Below, piece by piece: positions 3,191 through 27,989 of a stretch of DNA of 33,424 bases. The notes under the pieces were generated by a model. That model had not been told where the DNA came from, made no database searches, and saw only the letters and a list, made by a program, of their open reading frames with translations. Numbering within the stretch: the first letter of the stretch is position 1; each line of letters begins with the position of its first letter. The stretch lies in the NCBI GenBank assembly GCA_947175335.1, contig CAMWMF010000022.1:1-33424 (forward strand). The letters run 5' to 3'. The position numbers were made by a program, and so were the translations under genes. The DNA comes from an uncultured Clostridia bacterium (GTDB taxonomy: Bacteria > Bacillota > Clostridia > Christensenellales > Pumilibacteraceae).

Positions 3191-3224
3191 AATTCGGAAT
3201 TCGGAATTATGAATTCGGAATTAT
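3191..3224 (-). repeat. Heptamer array H1
   Basis: On the plus strand the array reads AATTCGG, AATTCGG, AATTATG, AATTCGG, AATTAT: four tandem 7-base units and a partial fifth. The same pattern recurs at 3581-3614 and, inverted, at 5642-5673 and 21779-21810; variants lie at 5522-5554 and 7713-7746. Here it separates structured element A from the rpsM leader. Confidence 0.9.
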
Positions 3225-3225
3225 C

Positions 3226-3447
3226 GTTGTTAAGACTTCGCCTTTTTAAATGTGCTTATTTGCCGCGAGCACACCGCATATACGTGCTCAACATACCGCT
3301 TCAATATTACAGAACGTATGTGAGAGTGCGGAGATGCGAGTTAGACGGACAGCTGGCGCCGAGGCGCGACGGGAGTTTAGACCCACCTAAATGACCGAGC
3401 GCCGAGAAGCACGCAGTCCGTATAACGACGCATATACGTGCTCGAAC
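3226..3447 (-). repeat. Structured intergenic element, copy A
   Basis: This stretch begins at the rpmJ stop codon and ends at heptamer array H1. It aligns end to end with copy B (7747-7931). Shared plus-strand blocks, in order, are a 28-base block around TTTTTAAATGTGC and TTGCCGCGA, GCGGAG, AGACGG, CGCGACGGG, TAGACCCACCTA, ACC-AGCG and CCGTAT. The hairpin at 3375-3392 has stem GTTTAG/CTAAAT and loop ACCCAC; in copy B the stem is changed on both sides while the loop is identical. The 15-base sequence CGCATATACGTGCTC occurs twice within copy A. No convincing coding frame is present. It could be a mobile-element relic or an RNA acting in the operon transcript. Confidence 0.7.
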
Positions 3448-3564
3448 TTAGCCTTGGCGTTGCTTATGGCTGGGGTTCTTGCTGCAAATTACCATAACCT
3501 TGCCGTGACGGCGAATGACTTTGCACTTGTCGCACATGGGTTTTACGGACGATCTTACTTTCAT
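3448..3564 (-). CDS. rpmJ: 50S ribosomal protein L36 (zinc-binding form)
   Basis: Very short large-subunit protein of 38 residues. It starts [20 protein letters not shown] and carries the zinc ligands Cys11, Cys14, Cys27 and His33 of the C+ form. A strong AAAAAGGAG site lies 8-10 bases before the ATG and directly abuts heptamer array H2. Its position between infA and rpsM is the standard Bacillota order. Confidence 0.96.
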
Positions 3565-3580: not shown

Positions 3581-3614
3581 AATTCGGAATTCGGAATTAT
3601 GAATTCGGAATTAT
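3581..3614 (-). repeat. Heptamer array H2
   Basis: Identical in pattern and orientation to H1 (AATTCGG twice, AATTATG, AATTCGG, AATTAT). It lies in the infA-rpmJ gap and ends directly next to the rpmJ ribosome binding site, so the array forms part of the translated operon's untranslated spacer. Confidence 0.9.
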
Positions 3615-5521: not shown

Positions 5522-5673
5522 AATTCGGAATTCGGAATGCGGAATTCGGAATTAGTGTTGGTTGTAGTCGTAAGTTGTATTATATTTGCTTGTCTAAATG
5601 TGCTTTAAAGAATTCAATAAGGGCACGAAGCGCAGTCCTTCAATTCCGAATTCATAATTCCGAATTCCGAATT
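5522..5673 (-). repeat. Short element C bounded by inverted heptamer arrays
   Basis: Heptamer arrays face each other at 5522-5554 (H3, with one AATGCGG variant unit) and 5642-5673 (H4, inverted), enclosing 87 bases. The interior shares only the end sequences of copies A and B: TAAATGTGCTT near 5595 and GCGCAGTCC near 5630. It looks like an internally deleted copy whose arrays form terminal inverted repeats, like a miniature inverted-repeat element. The H4 edge supplies bases of the secY TAA stop codon (5672-5674). No coding capacity is seen. Confidence 0.75.
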
Positions 5674-7712: not shown

Positions 7713-7746
<34 letters not shown>

Positions 7747-7931
7747 CGTAGGTTGAGCTATGCCTTTTTTAAATGTGCCTGCTTGCCGCGAATTCTCTCT
7801 GCCAAAACTGCGGAGTCGCGCCGCAGACGGGCAACAGTTGTGCCACACGCGACGGGCGCGTAGACCCACCTACGCAACCAAGCGGGTGGTGCAAACGTAG
7901 CCCGTATCCGGCGATGAATACGCAGTTTGAG
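7747..7931 (-). repeat. Structured intergenic element, copy B
   Basis: Second copy of the element described at 3226-3447. It starts at the rpsE stop codon and ends at array H5. The hairpin at 7858-7875 has stem GCGTAG/CTACGC around the loop ACCCAC, whereas copy A has GTTTAG/CTAAAT around the same loop: the stem differs on both sides yet pairing is kept. A second hairpin, CTGCGG/CCGCAG, lies at about 7808-7826. Two copies in one operon, each directly after a stop codon and each followed by a heptamer array, suggest the same insertion event type or a common RNA role. Confidence 0.7.
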
Positions 7932-8453
7932 TTAGAGTATTTCGTCTACCGTCTTTCCACGCATTGCGGCGACTTGGTCCAACGTCCTCAAGCTCTCCAA
8001 CGCGTTCATCGTCGCCTTTACGACGTTGATGGGGTTGCGCGAGCCGTAGCACTTGGTGGTGATGTTGTTTATGCCGCAAAGCTCCAACACCGCACGCACG
8101 CTGCCGCCGGCGATAACGCCTTTACCTTCGGGAGCGGGACGGAGAAGCACCTTGCTGCAAGAAAACTCGCCAATCGTTTCGTGCGGGATAGCCGTGCCGT
8201 TGAGCGCGATCTTTTTCATATCGCGGCGAGCGGCCTGCTCCGCCTTTTTGATAGCTTCGGGAACCTCGGTGGCTTTGCCCATGCCGATGCCCACTCTGCC
8301 TTTGCCGTCGCCCGCAACCACGAGCGCCGCAAAGCTGCTGTTACGACCGCCCTTAACAACCTTGCTGACCCTACGCGTAGTGACAAGCTTGGTTTTGATG
8401 CCGTCGTCGACAACTTCTTTTTCTCTTTTCTTTCTGAATTCTTCGCGTGCCAT
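7932..8453 (-). CDS. rpsE: 30S ribosomal protein S5
   Basis: Small-subunit protein near the mRNA entry channel, involved in decoding accuracy. The 173 residues contain the N-terminal double-stranded-RNA-binding-like domain (RVSKVVKGGRNSSFAALVVAGDGKG) and the C-terminal domain (GVIAGGSVRAVLELCGI, GSRNPINVVKATMNAL). It lies 9 bases downstream of rplR. Its stop directly borders structured element B. Confidence 0.97.
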   Translation of the reverse strand: MAREEFRKKREKEVVDDGIKTKLVTTRRVSKVVKGGRNSSFAALVVAGDGKGRVGIGMGKATEVPEAIKKAEQAARRDMKKIALNGTAIPHETIGEFSCSKVLLRPAPEGKGVIAGGSVRAVLELCGINNITTKCYGSRNPINVVKATMNALESLRTLDQVAAMRGKTVDEIL

Positions 8454-21778: not shown

Positions 21779-21810
21779 AATTCCGAATTCATAATTCCGA
21801 ATTCCGAATT
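21779..21810 (-). repeat. Heptamer array H6 at the smpB stop codon
   Basis: On the minus strand it reads AATTCGG, AATTCGG, AATTATG, AATTCGG, AATT, identical to H1/H2 in reverse orientation. Its first bases are shared with the smpB TAA stop codon (21809-21811), the same arrangement as H4 at the secY stop. This is the only full array outside the ribosomal operon. Confidence 0.9.
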
Positions 21811-27030: not shown

Positions 27031-27912
27031 ATGACACCTATAAGAAAAGGCGGACTTGGGCGCGGCCTGGGCGCACTGCTCAGCGATATCGAGGAAGAAT
27101 CGGTTATCAATTCGGTCGAAACGTCGGAAATGCTGCTATCTAATATCGAGCCGAATGTAGATCAGCCGCGCAAACAGTTTAACGACGACGCACTTTCCGC
27201 ATTAGTGGAAAGCATTAAAACCCACGGCGTAATAACACCGCTTATCGTCACACCCAAGCCCGACGGCAAATATATGATTATCGCAGGCGAACGCCGCTAC
27301 CGTGCAGCCACCGCCGCGGGCCTTGTGTCCGTACCGGTGTGCGTACGCGAATACACGCAGGTGCAGATTGACGAGCTGTCCTTGATAGAAAACATCCAGC
27401 GCGAGGACTTGAACCCTATGGAAGTAGCCCGCGCCATAAAAAAGTTGATGGACGACTACGGATATACTCAAGAGGAAGCTGCCGAGCGCATAGGTAAAGC
27501 TCGTCCGACTGTAGCCAACCTGCTCCGCCTTATGGATTTGACCGACGCCGTGCAAAAAATGGTGGAAAGCGGTCAGCTTTCGGCCGGACATGCCCGCTGC
27601 CTTGTGACTGTAGCGGATAGCGAATTACAGTGGGACCTTGCGCAAAAAGCTCGCGGCGACAGAATGAGCGTGCGCGACTTTGAAAAACTGGTTAAAAACA
27701 CATTAAATCCCAAAAAGAAACCCGACGCTACCAAACAGAGCCTCGAATTGCGCGATATGGTAGTACGCATGCAACGCACTTTCGGCACAAAAGTATCGCT
27801 TTTGGGCAACGATAATAAGGGACGCATATTTATAGATTACTATACCCCCGACGATTTGAGCCGTATCGAGAGCATGCTCGCCTATTTGGAGAGCAATTAC
27901 AACAAGGATTAA
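27031..27912 (+). CDS. parB: Chromosome partitioning protein ParB (Spo0J type)
   Basis: CTP-dependent DNA clamp that loads at parS and recruits condensin to the origin. 293 residues from ATG at 27031 (GGAGG 8 bases upstream; the longer reading starts in the promoter). Domains: N-terminal ParA-stimulating motif RKGGLGRGLGALL (5-17), CTP-binding GERRYRAA (86-93) and ENIQREDLNP (120-129), helix-turn-helix YTQEEAAERIGKARPTVANLL (145-165), C-terminal dimer domain. Three parS sites follow at once and match its expected target. The ParA-contact motif implies a parA elsewhere; none is in the window. Confidence 0.96.
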   Translation: MTPIRKGGLGRGLGALLSDIEEESVINSVETSEMLLSNIEPNVDQPRKQFNDDALSALVESIKTHGVITPLIVTPKPDGKYMIIAGERRYRAATAAGLVSVPVCVREYTQVQIDELSLIENIQREDLNPMEVARAIKKLMDDYGYTQEEAAERIGKARPTVANLLRLMDLTDAVQKMVESGQLSAGHARCLVTVADSELQWDLAQKARGDRMSVRDFEKLVKNTLNPKKKPDATKQSLELRDMVVRMQRTFGTKVSLLGNDNKGRIFIDYYTPDDLSRIESMLAYLESNYNKD

Positions 27913-27928
27913 TGTTCCACGTGAAACA
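27913..27928. promoter_or_regulatory. parS: parS site 1
   Basis: TGTTCCACGTGAAACA, matching the B. subtilis parS consensus TGTTNCACGTGAAACA. It begins one base after the parB stop codon. Confidence 0.95.
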
Positions 27929-27952
27929 TTTTTATATCCGTCAGAAAGCAAA

Positions 27953-27968
27953 TGTTCCACGTGAAACA
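27953..27968. promoter_or_regulatory. parS: parS site 2
   Basis: Identical to site 1 (TGTTCCACGTGAAACA), starting 40 bases after it. The 24-base spacer is unrelated to the next spacer, so only the 16-bp site is repeated. Confidence 0.95.
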
Positions 27969-27989
27969 ATCCAAGAGTCGGTAAAATAG

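Follow-up and report, generated by a model that had tools for sequence, protein, structure and literature searches.

A ribosomal-protein operon on the minus strand of the window, by which we mean the whole 33,424-nt stretch of DNA analysed here, contains two structured intergenic elements, A and B, and the question they raise is whether such elements belong to the ribosomal transcript as an RNA structure or are members of a mobile family. A preliminary description had left both answers open, on the strength of a hairpin with a common loop and a stem altered on both sides. This hairpin is present in both elements, as GTTTAG/ACCCAC/CTAAAT in A (plus strand, 3375-3392) and as GCGTAG/ACCCAC/CTACGC in B (plus strand, 7858-7875); the outermost pair of the A stem is G.T, which leaves five Watson-Crick pairs. 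It is the mere tip (helix 4 in the 75-copy alignment described below) of a rod-shaped palindrome of fixed length, about 129 nt with 43 model pairs, and the family to which this rod belongs is larger than had been reported. Rod A occupies positions 3321-3447 of the minus strand, which is the gene strand (127 nt; 99.7 bits), and rod B positions 7803-7931 of the same strand (129 nt; 123.6 bits), as scored with a covariance model, R1, that was trained on 11 copies from the genome of the window, A and B among them. With this model A and B are the sole rods in the window at E values up to 10. Read in the gene sense, and as had been proposed, each starts at a stop codon: A lies directly 3' of that of rpmJ (3448-3450) and B directly 3' of that of rpsE (7932-7934).

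The extents first given to the two elements, 3226-3447 and 7747-7931, hold for the rods themselves and not for the stretches downstream of them on the minus strand. The stretch following A (3226-3320), in which a fold of the whole region places a second small hairpin, and that following B (7747-7802) both lie outside the model. A short segment is common to the two stretches (3241-3267 after A resembles 7763-7790 after B), and a segment similar to 7763-7790 also comes after the rod at the rpsE site of genomes G012 and G014. The arrays of AATTCGG/AATTCCG heptamers near A (3191-3222) and near B (7713-7744), earlier described together with the element, are a separate repeat. At least two AATTCCG units occur within 250 nt downstream of just 5 of 76 rods, compared with 0.8% of random stretches of the same loci, and we therefore rejected the array as a part of the element and regard it as an occasional neighbour. 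Further arrays of this type lie in other gaps of the window (3581-3612, 5522-5553, 5642-5673 and 21779-21810), and in relatives they also occur without an adjoining rod.

The 11 full copies in the genome of the window align and fold into one rod, and 29 of the 43 pairs show two-sided change with pairing kept. In an alignment of 75 copies from this genome and close ones, 92.1% of 3200 pair cells were paired versus 70.0% after shuffling, and 656 cells carried a two-sided change versus 191.7 in the shuffles. The covariation score was 0.551 (0.164 shuffled; at most 0.094 in slid controls), and none of 500 shuffles reached either the pairing or the covariation score, which bears out the compensatory changes claimed for the stem. 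This alignment leans towards the model because it was fitted to it. For 48 matches from other genera and families, none of which was used to train the model, the values were 91.0% paired versus 71.0% shuffled, 397 two-sided changes versus 122.3, and a covariation of 0.508 versus 0.161; two opposite-strand duplicates are retained in these pair counts and were removed for the tests of placement and of the rod's foot. The rod is built on a basal helix, is interrupted by several internal loops whose letters hardly vary, and ends in a tip helix of five pairs closed by a loop that is mostly GTGGGT in the gene strand. Three columns are fixed as wobble positions, where the gene strand has G opposite T or C. 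For a mobile palindrome, strong covariation does not by itself establish an RNA function.

Copies with compensatory changes beyond A and B, the absence of which would have told against the preliminary description, were looked for and found. Blast searches of the genome of the window returned 11 places with A as the query and 9 with B, and the core pattern with up to three mismatches was found at 20 places (1 for the reversed control). The covariance model built from the 11 copies gave 15 matches in this genome at E <= 1, the two weakest scoring 43.1 and 32.9 bits, and it found matches in related Clostridia genomes. Rods were detected by the model in all 20 genomes of the genus, with 2-57 matches each; in the family they were found in 50 of 74 genomes, which represent 14 of its 18 genera. 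A sample of the order yielded 73 of 396 genomes at E <= 1e-6, 52 of the 73 lying outside the family; many of these genomes have one modest match, and eight candidates were scored per genome. In a collection of named genomes the exact core pattern was found in 53 stretches, whose titles name Clostridiales/Clostridia, Christensenella sp., Roseburia sp. (two stretches, both of one MAG) and Anaerocaecibacter muris, a member of the Pumilibacteraceae in NCBI taxonomy in which the model matches over the core only. A search of the window against Rfam 15 at E <= 1 gave one sub-threshold miRNA match (27902-27976) and none on the rods, and a search of 18 loci with copies gave a tRNA only, no Rfam family covering the rod. 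We found no publication on this family in the open-access literature, although the palindromic candidates of one report (PMC8040213) could include it.

We examined placement with 76 copies from five close genomes. These are the distinct members of a set of 87 drawn from 107 matches, weak, cut-off and opposite-strand matches being left out; four of the genomes contributed 19 of 33 (G011), 19 of 21 (G012), 16 of 23 (G014) and 9 of 17 (G015) copies to the placement and site comparisons, which also omit two matches of the genome of the window that are truncated or interrupted (L065, L066). A rod was scored as lying at a gene end when its 5' end was within 13 nt of a stop codon closing an open frame, the frame being read back to the previous stop with no start codon required. 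Such a stop, closing a frame of at least 60 codons, was found at the start of 52 of the 76 copies, and one closing a frame of 30-59 codons at 4 more; of the remainder, 14 follow a run of five or more T and 6 are placed otherwise. The corresponding frequency was 9.0% for random positions of the same loci, and 9 of 76 for the antisense mirror, in which the other end of the rod is scored in the opposite orientation. The offsets are sharply distributed (17 at 0, 12 at +6, 9 at +1, 7 at -1 and 7 elsewhere; n = 52), the rods are oriented in the sense of the upstream gene, and a stop is likewise found at 38 of 46 copies from other genera and families. Within 350 nt downstream of 54 of the 76 copies (median 85 nt) there is a frame of at least 60 codons whose start codon has a ribosome-binding-site-like motif, so that many rods look intra-operonic. 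The genes upstream, named from our reading of the proteins, include gyrB, clpP, ssb, glnA, potD, rpmE and others, and on this ground we rejected a ribosomal-protein leader or ribosomal autoregulation.

Comparison of orthologous sites points to gain and loss. We inspected, by eye, 22 junctions of the 35 matches listed, representing six copies of the genome of the window in five close genomes, and judged 15 to be empty and 7 filled; the gyrB-gyrA junction was empty in all five. At rpsE-rpmD, where 17 junctions were read, the rod was present in 6 (one degenerate), a different palindrome in 2, and neither in 9. At the rpsG-fusA, rpsE-rpmD and rpmJ sites, six comparisons gave rods that were 67-75% identical next to 200 nt of upstream sequence that was 90-97% identical; in two other same-site comparisons the rods were 99% identical. 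As read from these assembled junctions, the rod is present at some orthologous sites and absent at others in close relatives, and at some sites it has been replaced by a clearly different member of the family. The rpsG-fusA, ssb and potD-mnmG sites are common to several species, as would also be expected if rods were inherited vertically and maintained for a function, a point against the mobile reading. Possible short target-site duplications were seen, by eye only, at two or three sites.

Taken at the level of sequence, the position, orientation, presence or absence at orthologous junctions, replacement and foot register of the rod are established. We favour, with a probability of roughly 0.6, the interpretation that the rod is a small mobile palindrome, non-autonomous and akin to ERIC, YPAL and REP, that settles at the 3' ends of genes. 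The many copies, the empty orthologous sites, the differing members per site and the two-sided changes all agree with the structured mobile element that was one of the two original suggestions. Under such a mechanism the fold would be kept because mobilisation or copying depends on recognition of the folded palindrome, probably in the form of single-stranded or cruciform DNA; gene ends would be actual targets of insertion and more than places where it does no harm; and gene conversion between copies would swap modules such as the tip hairpin. A transcribed rod would then stand directly behind the terminating ribosome and, as with ERIC and stop-proximal REP sequences, might alter mRNA stability or translation. 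Small palindromic repeats are common, but where they land and why they are structured is, to our knowledge, poorly understood in most cases. The present family combines many filled and empty sites with a sharp rule of position and orientation, and its basal helix constrains coding sequence, the last codon and the stop, together with pairing. It thereby allows two questions to be put to the test: whether repeats of this type are maintained in folded form as DNA that moves or as RNA that serves the message, and whether insertion selects gene ends or is simply put up with at them.

The other original suggestion, an undescribed structured RNA of the ribosomal transcript, finds no clear support in the many kinds of upstream gene or in the following analysis of wobble pairs. 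In an RNA, G.U would be expected to be better tolerated than A.C at variable pairs. Outside the three wobble columns, which were set aside only after the counts were seen, the 75-copy alignment contains 62 G.U and 71 A.C, and the second set, from other genera and families, 21 and 58; with the three columns included the 75-copy counts are 214 and 71, and in the second set these columns hold a further 55 G.U. Two E. coli RNAs, RNase P and 6S, gave 15 G.U and 1 A.C in 153 pairs, a small control from another species for which four E. coli RNAs were aligned and SSU and tmRNA left out; a tRNA control (8 tRNAs) was discarded, being in the wrong register. Because G.U does not exceed A.C outside the three columns, as compared with 15 to 1 in the RNAs, we lean towards structure at the DNA level, and the rod is probably kept as a folded structure chiefly as DNA. 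The three fixed columns are G.U in the gene strand and thus also compatible with RNA, which leaves room for an RNA role; a mobile DNA element could well have an effect through its RNA in addition.

An alternative is that the rod is first of all a cis-acting mRNA element, serving in protection from 3' exonucleases, as an operon processing site or in slowing the terminating ribosome, with gain and loss secondary. The sense orientation, the exact placement at the stop, the seemingly intra-operonic position of many of the 54 copies with a downstream frame, the sites common to species and the three columns with G opposite T or C would all suit it, as would published links of ERIC to mRNA stability and of REP within 15 nt of a stop to stalled ribosomes. 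We nevertheless regard it as unlikely, since the other 40 pairs lack an excess of G.U over A.C, 14 of 76 copies come after a T-run, a place at which many transcripts would already have ended, the upstream genes are of many kinds, and the rod is missing from most of the orthologous junctions inspected.

The foot of the rod bears on how the element meets its host gene. In the +6 register the stop codon (TGA or TAA) lies within the basal helix. Of the 57 cells that the last sense codon contributes at 19 distinct sites, 40 are paired with the 3' arm, where 17.6 are expected and none of 10000 arm shuffles gives as many; for the stop codon 56 of 57 cells are paired, with 46.7 expected. In a set of 23 copies drawn from other genera and families, with repeated sites left in, the two inner codon letters were paired in 19 and 21 of 23, versus 10.2 and 11.9. 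Pairing with the host is bounded at the same rod position whether the stop is at +6, near 0 or absent. At ssb, genome G011, which lacks this rod there, has the same TTCTAAGGT at the gene end, so that the 3' arm at this site matches host sequence. The idea that RpsE lost its last codon through insertion was dropped: the terminal glycine codon is also absent in G004, G005, G011 and G017, none of which has such a rod at the rpsE junction.

These features could also have a mutational origin, in which template switching at the hairpin or gene conversion between copies corrects one arm by the sequence of its partner and carries the palindrome on into the host gene, so that two-sided changes would arise without selection on the fold. 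There are few G.U or A.C intermediates, as this would predict, and whole tip modules are exchanged between near-identical copies at one site, where L052 of G000 and L221 of G015 have a swapped tip hairpin and little else that differs. We doubt that it is the explanation, in that the internal loops and mismatches are conserved and not corrected away, and host complementarity ends at a fixed position in all classes. A stronger form of the mobile-palindrome interpretation is a portable gene-end module: a folded-DNA element, inserted in one orientation by a machinery that recognises gene 3' ends (the stop or the terminator), operating without a reverse transcriptase or Y1 transposase in its own genome, its basal helix rebuilt so as to take in the last codon and the stop of the host, whereby the element would provide or take over the end of the frame. 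We put this version forward tentatively, as one that is probably not the case.

An ordinary MITE-like element that inserts anywhere, with gene-end copies alone surviving and the rest being harmful, appears improbable. Known small palindromic repeats are intergenic and some insert next to dyad symmetry (YPAL, PMC2229807), and about 9% of random positions in these loci are near such a stop anyway. The offsets, however, are concentrated at -1, 0, +1 and +6 (45 of 52) rather than spread across the spacer, and the antisense mirror does no better than chance (9 of 76), where a near-palindrome would be expected to do as little harm in one orientation as in the other. Chance hairpins or ordinary terminators, GC-rich hairpins beside genes being common, are effectively refuted by covariation far above the shuffled and slid controls, by the lack of a T-run after the rods in the flanks listed, and by copies both inside operons and after T-runs.

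The rod behaves like the small mobile palindromes ERIC, YPAL, REP and bcr, with which we compared it as they are described in the cited passages. It is, like the first two, an interspersed, multi-copy, intergenic long stem-loop unit within about 100-170 bp, with filled and empty sites in relatives (15 of the 22 junctions empty; rpsE-rpmD). YPAL, or RU-2, of Yersinia is about 168 bp long with internal inverted repeats and filled and empty sites; its targets span or adjoin dyad symmetry, and it is co-transcribed with upstream genes (PMC2229807). The likeness, between different taxa and by description, lies in the inverted repeats and the filled and empty sites; unlike YPAL as there described, the rod begins at a stop codon, which may be part of it. 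ERIC (IRU, RU-1) is a 127-bp intergenic element forming one long stem-loop, with an orientation-dependent effect on mRNA and its stability (PMC2229807, PMC2267715). The rod resembles it in length, in the single long stem-loop and in its intergenic position. Similarity in sequence to ERIC proper was not seen, one representative rod (L052:1501-1664) having no blastn match in 20,395 E. coli records.

REP sequences, or PUs, are palindromes often found just after stop codons, and E. coli REPs no more than 15 nt from a stop have been tied to ribosome stalling (446 of 4,072 in RepRanger; PMC12306157). They are 20-40 bp long with an unpaired GTAG or CGTC tag (PMC3733652). The position just past stop codons is shared; unlike the REPs of these accounts, the rod is about 129 nt long with 43 model pairs, has CGTC inside its core and comes from a genome in which no Y1_Tnp was found. 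Membership in REP was rejected on its length and on the lack of an end tag like that of REP. The bcr repeats of the Bacillus cereus group are interspersed and intergenic in a Gram-positive host, some being MITE-like and some having conserved secondary structure, and often lie in UTRs or operon gaps (PMC3446304). They are alike by description, and the passages on bcr drawn on here do not mention a stop-codon register. Integron attC sites follow the stop of the cassette gene. They are imperfect palindromes of diverse sequence, and it is the structure of the folded single strand that is recognised (PMC2727003). Here too the likeness, that of imperfect palindromes, is by description, and the rods lie in housekeeping operons and not in cassette arrays.

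Candidates for the mover were sought as protein domains. Y1_Tnp (PF01797) was found in 4 and RVT_1 (PF00078) in 3 of the 20 genomes of the genus. Neither was found in the genome of the window (94% complete) or in G004, G011, G012 and G014, which have 57, 33, 21 and 23 copies of the rod; G019, with 29 copies, gave weak matches to both. With neither found in the genome of the window or in these four genomes, a Y1 transposase or a reverse transcriptase as the mover is not supported. A REP element with its RAYT (a Y1 transposase) and a group II intron or other retroelement are likewise not supported, PF01797 and PF00078, respectively, not being found in the genome of the window. The exact pattern had no match in viral contigs, nor had one representative rod in phages. 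Six Streptomyces plasmids match 30% of a representative rod at an E value of 2e-4, probably by chance, and a plasmid, phage or viral origin was set aside on these results.

Several minor observations concern the neighbourhood of the rods. At rpsE, L149 (G011) and L155 (G017) have a second, longer palindrome directly after the stop codon, which the model does not match, and such palindromes unrelated to the rod would suggest a landing rule common to more than one family. A segment, TGTCATTCTGAGCGTAGCGAAGAATCTCA, that recurs in several gaps among the flanks of copies from G011, G012 and G015 represents another interspersed repeat. The stretches shown for L166, on a second rpsE contig of G016, and L156 (G001) are identical, which suggests a foreign contig in G016. 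Finally, L125, L136, L011 and L253 have a similar segment inserted within the rod, as if a palindrome had landed in a palindrome.
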